Origin: Euzebya sp. | GTDB taxonomy: Bacteria; Actinomycetota; Nitriliruptoria; Euzebyales; Euzebyaceae | NCBI RefSeq assembly: GCF_964222135.1 | Contig: NZ_CAXQBR010000043.1 | Span: forward strand, 1-42,849 | Length of the DNA stretch: 42,849 nt | Reading direction: 5' to 3' | Shown here: positions 6,207 through 12,374 of the stretch, in pieces | Position numbering within the stretch: position 1 is the stretch's first letter | Layout of the letters: each line of letters opens with the position of its first letter | Notes under the pieces: model-generated | Seen by the model: the letters and a program-made list of their open reading frames with translations, nothing else | Databases searched by the model: none | Told to the model about the DNA's origin: nothing | Translations under genes and position numbers: made by a program

Positions 6207-6812
6207 TCAGCCGAGGGTCATCGCCCAGAAGGCCGCCTCGTGGCGTGCCACGACCAGGAACGCGTCGGTCGCCGCCGACGTCGGGCCGTCGGGCAGCTCG
6301 CGGTCGACGACCCGCCCGAGATCGGTCACGAACGCGGCGAACGCGTCGTTCGCCCAGTGCGTCACGTACTCGGCGTAGGCCTCCGCGCCGGGCAGCGCCC
6401 GCTGCCACGCGGCGAGGTACGCCGCCTCCACCGCCCACATCGCGGTGATCGCCACCGGGTACGCACGTCCCGCGAGGTCCATGAGGACCTCGTCGTAGGC
6501 GGCGGTGGCGGGCAGCTCCGGACCGTCGAGGTCGAGACCACGCACCGCCGCGATGTCCTCGAACCAGGCCAGCTCGTCTACGAAGGCCCGCATCCCTCCC
6601 ACGAGGAGCCCCATGTCCCGCCGGGGCGCCGACCCGAGGAGCCGGCCCCATGCGCGGACGAGGGTCTCGACGAAGCGGTGGTCCTGCTCGAGCCAGCGGT
6701 CGAAGGCGTCCGCCGGGAGGCTGCCGTCGGCGATGCCGTCGAGGAACGGCGACGTGGTCGCGGCCCGCCAGGCGTCGGGGTGGGCGGTGATCAGCGCGCT
6801 CGAGGTGCTCAC
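6207..6812 (-). CDS. TenA-family protein, Glu class (TenA_E)
   Basis: This 201-residue all-helical protein belongs to the thiaminase II/TenA fold. Asp44 and the C-terminal HEAAFW glutamate are kept. The segment that carries the catalytic Cys in classical TenA reads WAVEAAY here, so the Cys is absent and a Glu sits next to its place. That pattern marks the TenA_E class. In plants TenA_E hydrolyses the formylamino and amino forms of the thiamin pyrimidine to recover HMP. The GTG start overlaps the stop of the Cys-class tenA (GTGA), so the two are translationally coupled. Activity is inferred from class residues. Confidence 0.82.
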   Translation of the reverse strand: MSTSSALITAHPDAWRAATTSPFLDGIADGSLPADAFDRWLEQDHRFVETLVRAWGRLLGSAPRRDMGLLVGGMRAFVDELAWFEDIAAVRGLDLDGPELPATAAYDEVLMDLAGRAYPVAITAMWAVEAAYLAAWQRALPGAEAYAEYVTHWANDAFAAFVTDLGRVVDRELPDGPTSAATDAFLVVARHEAAFWAMTLG

Positions 6813-7447
6813 CGGTCCGTGGCCCCCTCAGCTGCGCTGGCGTGGGCGGAGTCGAAGAACGCGAGCTCGAGCTCCATCGCGGTCTGGTAGCGGTCGGTCA
6901 GCGTGGCCGGGTGCCCGCCCAGGTCGTCGAGGAGCTGCTCGACGGTCGCCGCGAGAACCTCGAAGTCGTCGGCGGCGTAGGTGCGGACCCAGTCGATGTA
7001 GTCCGAGGACGGGTCGGCGTCCTCGGCGAGCTGCTGCCCCAGCCAGGCGTACAGCCGCATGCACGGCGTCATCGCGGCGAGGACGTTCCCGAGCGGCTCC
7101 AGGGCCGCGGTGCGCAGCAGGAAGTCGGTGTAGGCGCGGGTCGCCGCGGTGGGGGAGGGGGTGAGGTCGACGTCCCAGCGCTCGGCGTAGCCGGCGTGGA
7201 GGTCGAGCTCGTCGACCGCGCCGTCGAGCAGGGCCTTGAAGCGCCGCAGCACGTCGCCGTCCGGGGAGCGGGCCAGGCCGAGCGCGTACGCCCGCGCGAA
7301 GGCCTCGAGGAAGAACGCGTCCTGTGCGACGTAGTGGGTGAAGGCGGGCCGGGCGAGCGAGCCGTCGGCGATGCCGCGGACGAAGGGGTGGCCGAGGCAG
7401 GCCTGCGCCGTCGGCTGGGCGGACGCCCACAGGGTTCGTGAGTCCAT
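6809..7447 (-). CDS. tenA: Aminopyrimidine aminohydrolase TenA, Cys class
   Basis: This 212-residue cytoplasmic enzyme hydrolyses aminopyrimidine from degraded thiamin to HMP, feeding thiamin salvage. Residues matching the Bacillus TenA active site are all present: Asp43 in QDAFF, Cys129 in MTPCMRLY, and Glu194 in MELELAFF. ATG 7447 is fixed by the -10 hexamer 7 nt upstream; no Shine-Dalgarno is present. The next gene downstream is a second, Glu-class TenA that overlaps it by 4 nt. Divergently, only 31 bp away, starts a membrane-anchored helix-hairpin-helix gene. No TPP riboswitch fits in the 31 bp, and a leaderless mRNA could not carry one. Confidence 0.9.
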   Translation of the reverse strand: MDSRTLWASAQPTAQACLGHPFVRGIADGSLARPAFTHYVAQDAFFLEAFARAYALGLARSPDGDVLRRFKALLDGAVDELDLHAGYAERWDVDLTPSPTAATRAYTDFLLRTAALEPLGNVLAAMTPCMRLYAWLGQQLAEDADPSSDYIDWVRTYAADDFEVLAATVEQLLDDLGGHPATLTDRYQTAMELELAFFDSAHASAAEGATDR

Positions 7448-7470: not shown

Positions 7471-7478
7471 CTGCGGTG

Positions 7479-8096
7479 ATGCGATCGCGCGCCCTCAAGC
7501 TGCTGTTGTTCCTGCTGGCCGCCGCGGGCGGTGTCGTCGCCTGGCAGCGCCGGCACGAGACGCCGCCGCTGCCGCCGGCCGAGCCGTTCATGGACCCCGC
7601 GCCGGTCAGCGCCGGCAGCGTCGCCACGCCGGTGCGGCCCACCCCGTCCGCCGGTACGGCCCCGGTGGGTGCCACCGGCGCGGCGGCCTCGGCGGTGCGG
7701 GCGGACGAGGCGCCCGGGTCCGAGGCCGTGGAGGAGGTCGACACCGCGGAGCTGCCGACGGCCGCGTCGGCGGAGGCCGTGGAGGGCGGGATCGCCGCGG
7801 ACGCCGGACGCGTGGCAGCTGACCGTGCGCCGGACGCCGGCGACGCACTGCCGACACCCCCGCACGGCCCGTTCACGACCGCTCCCGACGGGCCGGCTGA
7901 CGACCTGAAGCAGATCGCGGGCATCGGCCCGGCGATCGAGCGGGCACTCAACGCGCAGGGCATCACGACGTTCGCGCAGCTGGCCGGGTTGAGCGACGAC
8001 GACGTCGACGCGCTCCAGAAGCGGCTCCCGCAGCTCCCCGGCAGGATCCGCCGCGACGACTGGGTCGGCCAAGCTGCCCGCCTCGCCGCGGGGTAG
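7479..8096 (+). CDS. Membrane-anchored helix-hairpin-helix protein
   Basis: This 205-residue protein has an N-terminal membrane anchor (about residues 5-22, KLLLFLLAAAGGVVAW). A long Ala/Pro/Glu-rich linker without evident structure follows (about 30-135), then a C-terminal helix-hairpin-helix domain beginning DDLKQIAGIGPAIERAL. This HhH type, with a GIGPAIE hairpin and TFAQLAGL, is widespread as a DNA- or protein-binding module. The layout matches that of ComEA: anchor, linker, then HhH outside the membrane. It lies just before the comEA-comEC operon, separated by a 365-bp repeat-rich gap. A role in DNA handling at the membrane is an inference. The topology signal (RSR before the span, RRH after) is weak. 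Confidence 0.75.
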   Translation: MRSRALKLLLFLLAAAGGVVAWQRRHETPPLPPAEPFMDPAPVSAGSVATPVRPTPSAGTAPVGATGAAASAVRADEAPGSEAVEEVDTAELPTAASAEAVEGGIAADAGRVAADRAPDAGDALPTPPHGPFTTAPDGPADDLKQIAGIGPAIERALNAQGITTFAQLAGLSDDDVDALQKRLPQLPGRIRRDDWVGQAARLAAG

Positions 8097-8147
8097 CCCA
8101 GGGCACGCGGAGCGGTCGCGGGAGGGCCGGGCTGGGCGCCACCCCGT

Positions 8148-8351
8148 GGATGGATTCGACACCGTGGTGGCCGGCCCGTGGATGGATTCGACACCGTCGT
8201 CGCCGGCCGTTGGATGGATTCGACACCGTCAGCGACCACATGGACCACGGTGAGCCGCAGTTCCCGCGTTGCGCCACACCGAGACGCAGTGACCGGCCAC
8301 GGGGATGTCGATTCCATCCCGTGCCGTCCCGTGAGCGTGTCGATTCCATCC
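8148..8351. repeat. 32-bp-period repeat array with inverted copies
   Basis: Three exact 18-bp copies of GGATGGATTCGACACCGT lie at 8148-8165, 8180-8197 and 8212-8229, exactly 32 bp apart. The 14-bp spacers are themselves similar. After a 77-bp gap, two opposite-facing copies of GTCGATTCCATCC lie at 8307-8319 and 8339-8351, again exactly 32 bp apart. Paired with the direct copies, the inverted ones leave one central T-T mismatch. The array fills the otherwise gene-free 8097-8461 between the helix-hairpin-helix gene and comEA. The units are too short and too regular for a CRISPR. Function is unknown. Confidence 0.85.
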
Positions 8352-8461
8352 GTGTGGGTGGTGAACCGGTGGGGAGGGGTGGAGCGGCCGTCGGGCCGGG
8401 TTATCCCCAGGGTCGGTGACATGCGCCGCGGCGGCCACGTCAGCGACGGCATCCTCCGCGT

Positions 8462-9136
8462 GTGCGCTCCCACCTGGCGCGGCTGCGCGAGTCCCTGGAA
8501 CCGGTCGGCATCGCGCCGGCGGAGGCGCTGGCTCTGCTCATCCTGCTCGCCGGCGCCGCCGCCCTCAGCGGGGTCGTGTGGTGGACCAATGAGTCCGCCG
8601 CTCCCGCGCCACCGGTCGCCTCGACCGTCGAGGAGCGCCCCGGCCCGCTCGAGGTGACCCCGGACGCCCCGCGCGGGCCCCCTCCCGGTCCTGCGACCCC
8701 CGCCGGTGATGTCGTCGGCCACGTCGCCGGCGCCGTCGCACGGCCCGGGGTCCTCACGCTGCCGGCCGGGTCCCGGGTCGCCGACGCGGTCACGGCCGCC
8801 GGCGGCCCCACCCCCGACGCGGTGACCGGGGCGCTGAACCTCGCCCGTCCGCTCGAGGACGGCGAGCAGGTCCACGTGCCCGCTGCCGGGGAGGACCCGC
8901 CCCCGAGCGCCCCGCCTCCGCCCTCCGCTGCGGGCGACCCCCCCGGCCCGCTGGACCTCAACACCGCGACCACGGCCCAGCTGGAGGCGCTGCCGGGGGT
9001 CGGACCGGTCATGGCCCAGCGGATCGTCGAGCACCGCGAGGCGATCGGCGGGTACCTGGACGTGACCCAGCTCCTCGAGGTGCCGGGCATCGGCCCCGGG
9101 CGGTTCGCCGAGCTCGAGCCGCTGGTCTCGGTGTGA
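8462..9136 (+). CDS. comEA: Competence protein ComEA
   Basis: ComEA is the membrane-anchored receptor that binds double-stranded DNA and feeds it to the ComEC channel during natural transformation. The 224-residue protein has a transmembrane helix near residues 23-42 (ALALLILLAGAAALSGVVW) and a Pro-rich linker. An SLBB domain follows (about 80-140, GAVARPGVLTLPAGSRVADAV), then a second Pro-rich linker and a C-terminal helix-hairpin-helix pair (LDLNTATTAQLEALPGVGP onward). That domain order is classical. The GTG start at 8462 has no clear Shine-Dalgarno, and the in-frame GTG choice nearby is uncertain. comEC follows after 10 nt, so the two form an operon. Confidence 0.93.
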   Translation: MRSHLARLRESLEPVGIAPAEALALLILLAGAAALSGVVWWTNESAAPAPPVASTVEERPGPLEVTPDAPRGPPPGPATPAGDVVGHVAGAVARPGVLTLPAGSRVADAVTAAGGPTPDAVTGALNLARPLEDGEQVHVPAAGEDPPPSAPPPPSAAGDPPGPLDLNTATTAQLEALPGVGPVMAQRIVEHREAIGGYLDVTQLLEVPGIGPGRFAELEPLVSV

Positions 9137-9146
9137 CGGGGACGCG

Positions 9147-11477
9147 GTGACGACCACCACCGCCGCGCTCGTGCTCGCCTGCGCGTGGGTCGGTGCGCTC
9201 GTCGGCGCGGCCATCCCCCTCGTCGCGCCGATCGGACTCGTGGCGGGGGTGGCCGCGGTGGCGGGAGCCGCCCTCGCCGCGATCGGCCGCCGCGGACGTC
9301 CGCTGCTCGTCGCCGTGGTCCTCGCCGTCGCGGCGACCGCCGCGCGCGGGGCGAGCGTCCGGACCGTCGCCGTGGCGGAGGGCGTCCTCGCACGGGCGGT
9401 CGACGAGCGGGTGACGGCGACGGGGGGTGGGCTCGCAGTCTCGGTCGACCTCACCGCGGTCGACGACCCGCGGACCACCCGGACCGGTGGCCGGTGGGTC
9501 CTCGCGCGGCTCAGCGCCGTCGAGGTGCCCGCCGACGCGCGGACCCCGACCCCCTCCACGAGATGTGCCGCAGCGCCGGAGCAGGGGCCCGGGTGCACCT
9601 CGGCGGCCTCGGCACCGCGGCGGACCCGCGAGCGGGTGGTCCTCCGGTTGCCGGCTGACGTCCGGGCGCCGTTCGACGCCCACCTCCGCGTCCGGGGGCT
9701 CGCCACGCCGATCGAGGGCGCGGCGGCGGGGTGGTTCGAGGGACTCGGCGCGGTCGTGCAGATCGACCCCGTCCGGACCGAGCCGATCGCTGACCCGCCG
9801 GGATGGCGGGCGGCCACCACCTGGCTGCGGGTCCGGACCGGCGCCGCCGCCGGCACGCACCTGGGACGAGCCCCCGCGGCGCTGCTCGCGGGCCTGGTGA
9901 CCGGCGACGTCGAGGACCTGCCGGAGGCGACGGCGGACCAGGTCCGCGACGCCGGGCTCAGCCACCTGGTGGCGGTCTCCGGATCGAACGTCGCGCTCGT
10001 CGTCGCCGGGGTCCTCGGCTTCGCGGGCCTCGTCGGCGTCGGTCGTCGGGGTGGCTGGTGGCTCGCCCTGGGTGCGGTGTGGTGGTTCGCCGTGCTCGTG
10101 CGCGTCGAGCCGAGCGTCGTCCGTGCCAGCGCGATGGCCACGCTGGTCCTCGCCGCGCTCCTCGTCGGCCGCGTCCGGTCCACCGGGCACCTGCTGTGCA
10201 CCGCCGGTGCGGTGGTGCTGCTGGTCGATCCGATGCTCGCCAGGCGGCTGGGGTTCGTGCTGTCGATGTCCGCGACGGCCGGTGTCGTGCTGATCGCGCC
10301 TGCGCTGGCGGCCCGACGTCCGACGTGGCTGCCACGGCCGGTCGCGGCGCTCGCGAGCGCGACCGTCGCCGCCCAGGTGGCCGTCGCCCCGGTCCTGCTG
10401 GTCGGCGGGGACGGGGTCCACGCGGCGAGCATCCCGGCCAACGTCCTCGCGGTCCCCGCCGCGGGCGCCGCGAGCCTCGTCGGTGCCGTGGCGGCGGTCG
10501 TCGCGGTGATCGACGTCGAGGCGGCCGGCGTGGTGGCGGCCGTGGCGCGGCCGGCGCTGTGGCTCGTGCTGGCGAGCGCTCGCTGGTTCGCCGACCCGGC
10601 CGTCCGCCAGGCGGTGGAGGTCATCGGCGCGCTCGCGGCGGCGGGGCTGCTCGCGATCCTGGCGTGGCGTCGCCTGCCGCACCGCGTCCGCGTCGTCGGC
10701 CCCGTCGTCGTGGCGGTGGTCGCCGCGATGCTCGTCGGTCGCGGACCCACGTCCACCGGCGCGCCCGCGTCGCCGGTCCTCATCGCCCTCGACGTGGGCC
10801 AGGGGGACGCGATCCTCCTCGGCGACCCGAGCGGCGGGTGGGTCCTCGTGGACGGCGGGCCCGATCCCGCTGCGGCGGCGGACCGCCTCGCGGACCGCGG
10901 GATCACCCGGCTCGCCGCGGTCGTGGCGAGCCACTCCGACGCCGACCACGTCACGGGCCTCCCGGCGGTGCTGCGCGCCGTCGACGTCGGGACCGTCATC
11001 ATCGGCCCGCGCGGCGAGGCGGCCGCGGACCTGCTGGCAGCGGCCCGGTCCGCCGGCACGCGGGTGACGACGGTCGCCGCCGGCGGGTCGTGGCAGCACG
11101 GGACGACCGCGATCCGGGTGCTGTCCCCGCCCCAGACCGGCCTCGGCGAGGACCCGAACGACAACAGCCTGGTGCTCCGGGTCGACGTGCCGGGTGGGCG
11201 GAGCGCGCTGCTCACCGGTGACGCCGAGGTGGTTCCGCAGTCCCTCCTGATCGACGACCCGCTGGTTGACGTGGACGTCCTCAAGGTGCCCCACCACGGG
11301 GGTGCCACCAACGCGCAGGGCTTCCTGGCCGCGACCACCCCCGAGGTGGCGGTCATCAGCGTCGGCGCGGACAACGACTTCGGCCACCCCCACCCGGACG
11401 TGCTCGCCGACCTGGCCGGGATCGATCTGCGGCGTACCGATGAGGACGGTGACGTGGTCATCATCCTGCGGCCGTGA
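9147..11477 (+). CDS. comEC: DNA uptake channel ComEC/Rec2
   Basis: ComEC forms the inner-membrane channel for single-stranded DNA in transformation. The 776-residue protein has hydrophobic segments at the N-terminus, a DUF4131-like soluble part (about 70-230) and the Competence membrane domain (about 235-540). That domain includes the conserved DAGLSHLVAVSGSNVALV near residue 270. A C-terminal metallo-beta-lactamase domain starts at VLIALDVGQGDAILL and holds HSDADHVTGL as the metal-binding motif. Later it has LLTGDAE and VPHHGGATN. Length and order are standard, and nothing suggests truncation. It starts at GTG 9147 after GACGGGGACG. In many bacteria holA follows directly; here 2.4 kb of accessory genes intervene. 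Confidence 0.95.
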   Translation: MTTTTAALVLACAWVGALVGAAIPLVAPIGLVAGVAAVAGAALAAIGRRGRPLLVAVVLAVAATAARGASVRTVAVAEGVLARAVDERVTATGGGLAVSVDLTAVDDPRTTRTGGRWVLARLSAVEVPADARTPTPSTRCAAAPEQGPGCTSAASAPRRTRERVVLRLPADVRAPFDAHLRVRGLATPIEGAAAGWFEGLGAVVQIDPVRTEPIADPPGWRAATTWLRVRTGAAAGTHLGRAPAALLAGLVTGDVEDLPEATADQVRDAGLSHLVAVSGSNVALVVAGVLGFAGLVGVGRRGGWWLALGAVWWFAVLVRVEPSVVRASAMATLVLAALLVGRVRSTGHLLCTAGAVVLLVDPMLARRLGFVLSMSATAGVVLIAPALAARRPTWLPRPVAALASATVAAQVAVAPVLLVGGDGVHAASIPANVLAVPAAGAASLVGAVAAVVAVIDVEAAGVVAAVARPALWLVLASARWFADPAVRQAVEVIGALAAAGLLAILAWRRLPHRVRVVGPVVVAVVAAMLVGRGPTSTGAPASPVLIALDVGQGDAILLGDPSGGWVLVDGGPDPAAAADRLADRGITRLAAVVASHSDADHVTGLPAVLRAVDVGTVIIGPRGEAAADLLAAARSAGTRVTTVAAGGSWQHGTTAIRVLSPPQTGLGEDPNDNSLVLRVDVPGGRSALLTGDAEVVPQSLLIDDPLVDVDVLKVPHHGGATNAQGFLAATTPEVAVISVGADNDFGHPHPDVLADLAGIDLRRTDEDGDVVIILRP

Positions 11478-11614: not shown

Positions 11615-12007
11615 TCAGGCGACCACCTCGACCTGGCACCGTAGACCCGGCGTCCGAGCGAACTTCGCGTCCACCGTCACAAGAGGCACGTCGAGGACCT
11701 CGGCCAACGCGACGAAGGCTGCGTCGTAGGGCCACATGTTGTCGCGCAGCTGCCAGATGCGGTCGGTCAGCGGGGCGATGTCGTAGCGGCGGAGGTCCAG
11801 CTGCTCCATCAGGAGCAGCGCCCGACGACCGTCCTCCGGCGAGACCTTCCCGCCCAGCACCAGACCCCGGAGTCCGGAGATGACCTCGAGGTCGAGTCCA
11901 TGCGGAGCGGCCAAGGGGACGCCGGTGATCCGGTCTCTCAACCGCATGGCATCGTCAGCGGCGCTCGTGAAGTACTCGATGAGGGCCGCGGTGTCCACGA
12001 CGATCAT
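11615..12007 (-). CDS. vapC: VapC-type PIN-domain ribonuclease toxin
   Basis: This 130-residue PIN-domain protein is the toxin of a type II toxin-antitoxin pair; VapC toxins cut tRNA or rRNA when freed from the antitoxin. All four acidic metal-binding positions are present: Asp5 (MIVVD), Glu41 (DLEV), Asp95 (PYDAAF) and Asp113 (TVDAKF). It therefore looks active. ATG 12007 overlaps the vapB stop by one base (TGATG), so translation is coupled. The closest subfamily by eye is the set with a FitA-like antitoxin. The 137 bp between its 3' end and comEC hold no other gene that I can support. Confidence 0.92.
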   Translation of the reverse strand: MIVVDTAALIEYFTSAADDAMRLRDRITGVPLAAPHGLDLEVISGLRGLVLGGKVSPEDGRRALLLMEQLDLRRYDIAPLTDRIWQLRDNMWPYDAAFVALAEVLDVPLVTVDAKFARTPGLRCQVEVVA

Positions 12008-12243
12008 CAGGTCTCGCGTCTTCGAGCCGCGTCGATCGCGTCAAGGACGTCCTGCCTGGTCACCGCGGATCGTGACGCGATCTGCCGGGCTCGCTCCGCG
12101 ACCTCCTCGGGGGACATGATCGCGGCCTCCCGATCGAGGAGCTGGCGTACGAAGGCCTGCACGGACTGTCCGGCCCGAGCCGACTTCTGCTTCAAAGCGG
12201 CCATGGTCTCGTCTGGCACATCGCGGACGTGAAGAACGGCCAT
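12007..12243 (-). CDS. vapB: VapB/FitA-type ribbon-helix-helix antitoxin
   Basis: This 78-residue antitoxin has an N-terminal ribbon-helix-helix domain (AVLHVRDVPDETMAALKQKSARAGQSVQAFVRQLL). The DVPDET turn and the RAGQSVQAF helix are typical of FitA-like antitoxins. The C-terminal third, rich in Arg and Glu, would wrap the toxin. Such antitoxins dimerise and repress their own operon. ATG 12243 is supported by a TACCCT hexamer 6 nt upstream. A perfect 9-bp palindrome lies only 18 bp upstream of the start codon, as expected for an autoregulatory operator. An in-frame upstream start at 12330 would read through the operator and is rejected. Confidence 0.92.
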   Translation of the reverse strand: MAVLHVRDVPDETMAALKQKSARAGQSVQAFVRQLLDREAAIMSPEEVAERARQIASRSAVTRQDVLDAIDAARRRET

Positions 12244-12249
12244 GCACAC

Positions 12250-12255
12250 AGGGTA
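12250..12255 (-). promoter_or_regulatory. -10 element of vapBC (leaderless)
   Basis: On the minus strand TACCCT is followed by 6 nt and ATG 12243. The operator palindrome occupies the spacer region just upstream, so bound VapB would block polymerase. Confidence 0.55.
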
Positions 12256-12261
12256 CGACCG

Positions 12262-12282
12262 ATGCAAGCACGATGCTTGCAT
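12262..12282. promoter_or_regulatory. Palindromic operator of vapBC
   Basis: ATGCAAGCA (12262-12270) and TGCTTGCAT (12274-12282) are perfect inverted repeats around a 3-nt spacer. The site is relatively AT-rich for this genome and sits directly upstream of the vapB -10. It is the natural candidate for VapB-VapC binding. Confidence 0.75.
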
Positions 12283-12374
12283 GGGGTGGTGGCCTGCGCG
12301 CGATGATGTCCGGACCGTGGTGACGTCCACCCGGGGGACGCGGCCACCGGGGCCGCTGGACGAGGAGCGACGAG

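Follow-up and report, generated by a model that had tools for sequence, protein, structure and literature searches.

A helically phased repeat array beside comEA in Euzebya belongs to a dispersed intergenic family with a candidate AbiEi-like partner protein

The gap upstream of comEA in this Euzebya contig holds a regularly spaced, two-sided repeat array, which raises the question of what such an array does and whether it has anything to do with the competence genes beside it. The window, that is, the whole 42,849-bp stretch of DNA analysed here, contains three identical copies of GGATGGATTCGACACCG starting at 8148, 8180 and 8212, in steps of 32 bp, and 3' of these two inverted copies that end at 8319 and 8351, also 32 bp apart. 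Sites 1 (GGATGGATTCGACACC; 8148-8163), 2 (8180-8195) and 3 (8212-8227) are exact plus-strand copies of a 16-bp genome-wide motif, GGATGGAWTCGACAYC, and sites 4 (GGATGGAATCGACATC; 8304-8319) and 5 (8336-8351) match it on the minus strand. Between inverted arms, 14 or 15 of 15 bases can pair, and the middle of the array (8228-8303) carries a core-like TGACC word (GGTCA) at 8289-8293. With up to three mismatches, the window has 7 motif matches compared with 1.35 expected, and none of 100 shuffles reached 7; the direct trio and inverted pair described in the initial annotation are therefore real and far above shuffled expectation.

The array occupies a 365-bp gap (8097-8461) between a gene for an HHH-domain protein (7476-8096, plus strand; HHH_5, E = 1.2e-5, 26.1 bits, narrowly missing the curated cut-off of 27) and the plus-strand genes comEA (8462-9136; HHH_3, 1.5e-18, and SLBB, 1.2e-13) and comEC (9147-11477; Competence PF03772, 5e-43, plus Lactamase_B). 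Elsewhere in the window, the minus strand encodes a VapBC-type pair at 11615-12330, consisting of a PIN-domain toxin and a FitA-like ribbon-helix-helix antitoxin, and two overlapping adjacent TenA/THI-4-type genes at 6207-7447, the first identified by Pfam and the second by sequence reading only.

The window array is one of at least 22 similar intergenic arrays, which form a real, phased and dispersed family. In the host genome (5.06 Mb in 111 contigs), GGATGGAWTCGACAYC has 67 exact sites, or 83 if one mismatch is allowed, compared with 0 for a reversed-pattern control. All 83 fall in 22 intergenic arrays, with no solitary copies; we refer to arrays of this motif, the window array included, as type 1. 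The usual layout is two inward-facing copies, a middle of 80-120 bp and two inverted copies, so the third direct site in the window is unusual, most arrays having two on that side. The motif is asymmetric, and plus-facing sites lie to the left of minus-facing sites without exception, such that the motifs point inward. In 85,000 other genomes, the motif matched nothing but chance pairs and simple, unrelated tandem repeats, and viral contigs yielded one simple repeat. Alkalicoccobacillus gibsonii has simple tandem arrays of about 20 bp with GGATGGAATCGACGAAGAG (L063:7370-7830 and L060:1520-1715), the resemblance of which to the motif is due to chance.

Neighbouring type-1 sites facing the same way are 22, 32-34, 42-45 or 53-54 bp apart (period 10.6, R = 0.92, n = 39, Rayleigh p ~ 4e-15). 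These spacings are whole helical turns, which fits protein binding on one face of B-DNA. Phasing at 22 loci, and again in two other array families, lends strong support to the earlier suggestion of a cooperative binding array with all sites on one face. Distances across the middle (82, 93-94, 103-107 and 115-119 bp) were also non-uniform, with a less sharp period (best fit 11.8; R = 0.69 at 10.5). Conservation is poor in type-1 middles: neither middles nor flanks are related among copies, whereas the arms are near-identical. GGTCA or TGACC was nevertheless present in 13 of 22 middles, compared with 3.3 expected from shuffles.

By sequence reading, no theme unites the genes next to the arrays, which are ordinary core genes (gyrA, purL, hisF, ileS, etfA, comEA and others). 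At comEA, three congeners keep the gene order, but their gap is much shorter and holds no array. The link to competence, which the initial annotation had raised, is therefore incidental. A role as DNA uptake or recognition sites was also proposed, but DNA uptake sequences are scattered singly through a genome in hundreds to thousands of copies; this reading is not supported by the 83 copies, all clustered in 22 arrays, and the other arrays examined adjoin unrelated core genes. Among 47 called contexts, around 29 arrays lie between tandem genes, 9 between convergent and 9 between divergent genes, and certain arrays end 30-60 bp short of start codons. A G-rich run, GGGGAGGGGTGG or its complement, occurs at 8371 and 4537 in the window and also in intergenic DNA near many arrays.

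Type 1 is not the only array family in the host genome. A de novo scan of 368 kb uncovered a second family with arms CACGGATCGACTCCG, the 11-bp core of which has 62 matches genome-wide, part of them outside arrays. Type-2 spacings are mostly whole turns (R = 0.74, p ~ 4e-10), and the distance across the middle is usually 90-91 bp. Many type-2 middles have CTGACCTGC...CCCACGGATGTGCAC in common, and GGTCA was found in 8 of 15, compared with 1.7 expected. A possible third type has ACGGATCGACC arms (L032:101-217, L042:5666-6850 and L198:13500-13630); one pair of these arrays brackets a thioesterase-like gene, and no partner protein was found.

Arrays with another arm type, GGAYGGAATCG[AC]CTC or ..CCCC, were present in the congener G001 and in Euzebya pacifica (G003; over the 8 kb compared, its second replicon has the same sequence as NZ_CP031166.1). 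Their layout is near-fixed, A-22-B-53/64-C-44/45-D(inverted), and in the 64-bp class GCAGGTCAGCG-like words recur at a constant position. GGATGGAWTCG is common to type-1 and E. pacifica arms, whereas type 2 differs. Several arrays occupy the same position in G001 and E. pacifica, and in four such orthologous pairs the arms are 84-91% identical, compared with 36-51% for the B-C and C-D spacers, 48% for the 6-bp A-B spacer and 32-39% for the flanks. Because the arms are far more alike than the spacers and flanks, we conclude that they are under selection, and purifying selection on the arms suggests a host role as well.

Array positions nonetheless turn over. Around six host array sites could be checked in a congener, and only L045, which has an array in all three species, is common to both. 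L140 and L156 seemed empty and hold arrays of another subtype. At L142, only one site remains in G001, suggesting loss and not clean insertion, and L163 is absent from E. pacifica; neither of these two presence/absence cases has a clean border, and we saw no insertion junctions or target-site duplications. In E. pacifica, a gene for a Mutator-family transposase (L138:3898-5130; Transposase_mut, 4e-125) lies between two arrays, and its G001 counterpart, L158, contains array sequence only.

Which protein might recognize these arrays? On another contig of the host genome, a gene encoding a 334-amino-acid protein, P1 (L049:4266-5270, minus strand), lies between two type-1 arrays. Homologous proteins of around 330 amino acids are encoded between two type-2 arrays (P2, L204:15579-16556) and between two E. 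pacifica arrays (P3, L144:4218-5216), such that each gene is bracketed by arrays of its own type, one upstream of the start and one downstream. No fourth homologue was found at E ≤ 1e-3 in the 2.8 Mb examined; as this sequence is enriched for array loci, the link between P genes and arrays is an association and not proof. In addition, the thioesterase-like and Mutator-type genes are also bracketed, and the bracketed gene is therefore not always P. Searches of plasmids, phages and viral contigs returned no P homologues.

The N-terminal region of P resembles PADLOC AbiEi (E = 2.8e-11 for P1, 7.6e-8 for P3 and a weak 0.0019 for P2), with a match to Pfam AbiEi_4 just under the cut-off. For the C-terminal region, P1 alone matched DUF559 (E = 0.011, under the Pfam cut-off), and residues D240, E251, H257, D262 and D264 are invariant in P1, P2 and P3; this sub-threshold match and residue pattern point to a putative PD-(D/E)XK/DUF559-like nuclease. 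No convincing sequence relatives of P were found in the PDB. Identity in the winged helix is 52% for P1-P3, 32% for P1-P2 and 26% for P2-P3, an order that matches arm similarity and indicates parallel divergence of arms and winged helix. The neighbours of P1 and P3 are, by Pfam, a HAD hydrolase, an aldehyde dehydrogenase, a flavodoxin-like protein and a peptide chain release factor. P2 and P3 lie in different gaps near the same prmC-sua5 genes. No AbiEii/DUF1814 toxin gene was found among the immediate neighbours of P1 and P3 (Pfam) or P2 (sequence reading only), and these are therefore not AbiE type IV toxin-antitoxin loci. A literature search for DUF559 or AbiEi with repeats returned nothing matching, and the partnership of arrays and P was not found described.

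We propose that the arrays are probably cooperative platforms for a cognate AbiEi-like/DUF559-like P protein, organized in the manner of REP/RAYT. Each array would dock several copies of one cognate P protein, with P1 the proposed partner of the window array type. The winged-helix domains would bind the arms on one helix face and fold the DNA, which would bring the conserved C-terminal half of P to the array middle; there it may engage a second element, the GGTCA-like word that is clear in type 2 and the congeners. P may also disperse the arrays, as proposed for RAYTs (PMC2817692), which would explain the bracketed genes, the species-specific sets and the matching change of arms and protein. 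Arm binding and array folding by P are predicted by analogy, and nuclease activity or cutting, dispersal by P and any cellular role are likewise putative.

Two known systems share parts of this organization. In REP/RAYT, the gene is flanked on both sides by its own repeats, and cognate repeats are dispersed in the chromosome and change with the protein (PMC2817692). The arrays resemble REP/BIME-RAYT in the bracketed gene, in dispersed, intergenic composite repeats that change together with the protein and in having several pairs per genome. However, their arms are asymmetric and lack a REP palindrome with a GTAG head, they are phased by helical turns and their candidate partner is AbiEi/DUF559-like. 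None of the five genomes searched encoded a Y1-type tyrosine transposase (RAYT, PF01797), although positive controls were detected. Lacking both this transposase and palindromic REPs, the arrays do not have the defining features of REP/RAYT. Among AbiEi proteins, that of Streptococcus agalactiae binds cooperatively to inverted repeats, bending the DNA, and Mycobacterium tuberculosis Rv2827c binds four inverted repeats (PMC7319586). Like these, P has a winged helix of the AbiEi type, and its gene lies next to several inverted sites; the repeat spacings of the two known operators differ by 10 bp, which recalls the steps of one turn observed here. P differs in its extra nuclease-like C-terminal region, in the chromosome-wide arrays and in having no AbiEii toxin in the neighbours checked. 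Stoperators of cluster A actinophages, which are bound by a helix-turn-helix protein, are also asymmetric, dispersed, intergenic motifs, but they occur as single sites in phage genomes, whereas here there are only phased, inverted arrays in a chromosome.

Other explanations account for parts of these data. A sequence-specific protein, P or another, could fold or bridge DNA at arrays that act as immobile chromosome-organizing or insulating sites, as might be expected from arrays that lie between core genes in all orientations and that keep their arms at orthologous G001 and E. pacifica positions while the intergenic surroundings are randomized. We consider this unlikely, given that array positions turn over, with L045 alone common among the checkable host sites, and that the best candidate partner is nuclease-like and array-bracketed, which a purely architectural site would not need. 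Less likely still are regulon operators, through which an AbiEi-like transcription factor would control its own gene and the array-adjacent genes. AbiEi does autoregulate through multiple inverted repeats (PMC7319586), every P start has an array upstream and certain arrays lie close to start codons; however, about one-fifth of arrays are between convergent genes, the neighbouring genes have no common function and every P gene has an array downstream as well.

It is very improbable that the arrays are MITEs of an unrecognized transposon. Their dispersed, intergenic and species-specific distribution, and the presence and absence of L142 and L163 between close congeners, would suit such elements, but unrelated type-1 middles and flanks around near-identical arms are the opposite of recent copying, no border duplication was seen and the leftover site at L142 in G001 points to loss. 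It is extremely improbable that the inverted arms pair to form a structured RNA, a reading raised in the initial annotation. Arm complementarity is high, but the spacing follows turns of B-DNA, the arrays have no preferred orientation to genes and also lie between convergent ones, an Rfam search gave no match at E up to 1 and direct-repeat pairs in the congeners are as concordant as inverted pairs. Nor does the variable base covary between inverted arms. Motif position 8 is T in 46, A in 34 and C in 3 of the 83 sites, and inverted partners agree there at 0.44, compared with 0.46 when shuffled; the T-T mismatch, which the initial annotation took as a sign of kept asymmetry, does not hold generally.

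More tentatively than the platform model itself, the arrays might represent a kind of bacterial DNA element that disperses itself and has not been described before. Such elements would be helically phased arrays of multiple sites, and one genome would hold several arm specificities that exclude one another. Each array would be bound, and perhaps cut at a conserved core, by a cognate fusion of AbiEi and DUF559 whose gene lies between two arrays, with dozens of chromosomal sites under selection. If this is right, a REP/RAYT-type partnership of dispersed repeats and bracketed gene has arisen in an unrelated protein family, and a candidate target becomes available for AbiEi-like and DUF559-like proteins that occur alone and have no assigned role. 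A testable code relating arm sequence to winged-helix sequence is provided by the three protein-array pairs.

Other intergenic inverted-repeat families of alternating orientation, unrelated to the arrays, occur in G001 (L101:16880-17110 and L105:12260-12500) and in E. pacifica (L090:2640-2800); they comprise ACGATTGTGG with a GTGCACCCGTGC centre, and CGTGTCGG...CCGACACG. In G002 (L118:17960-18180), two inverted copies of TGTACCGAGAGT are followed by a tandem repeat with 19-bp spacing, without helical phasing.
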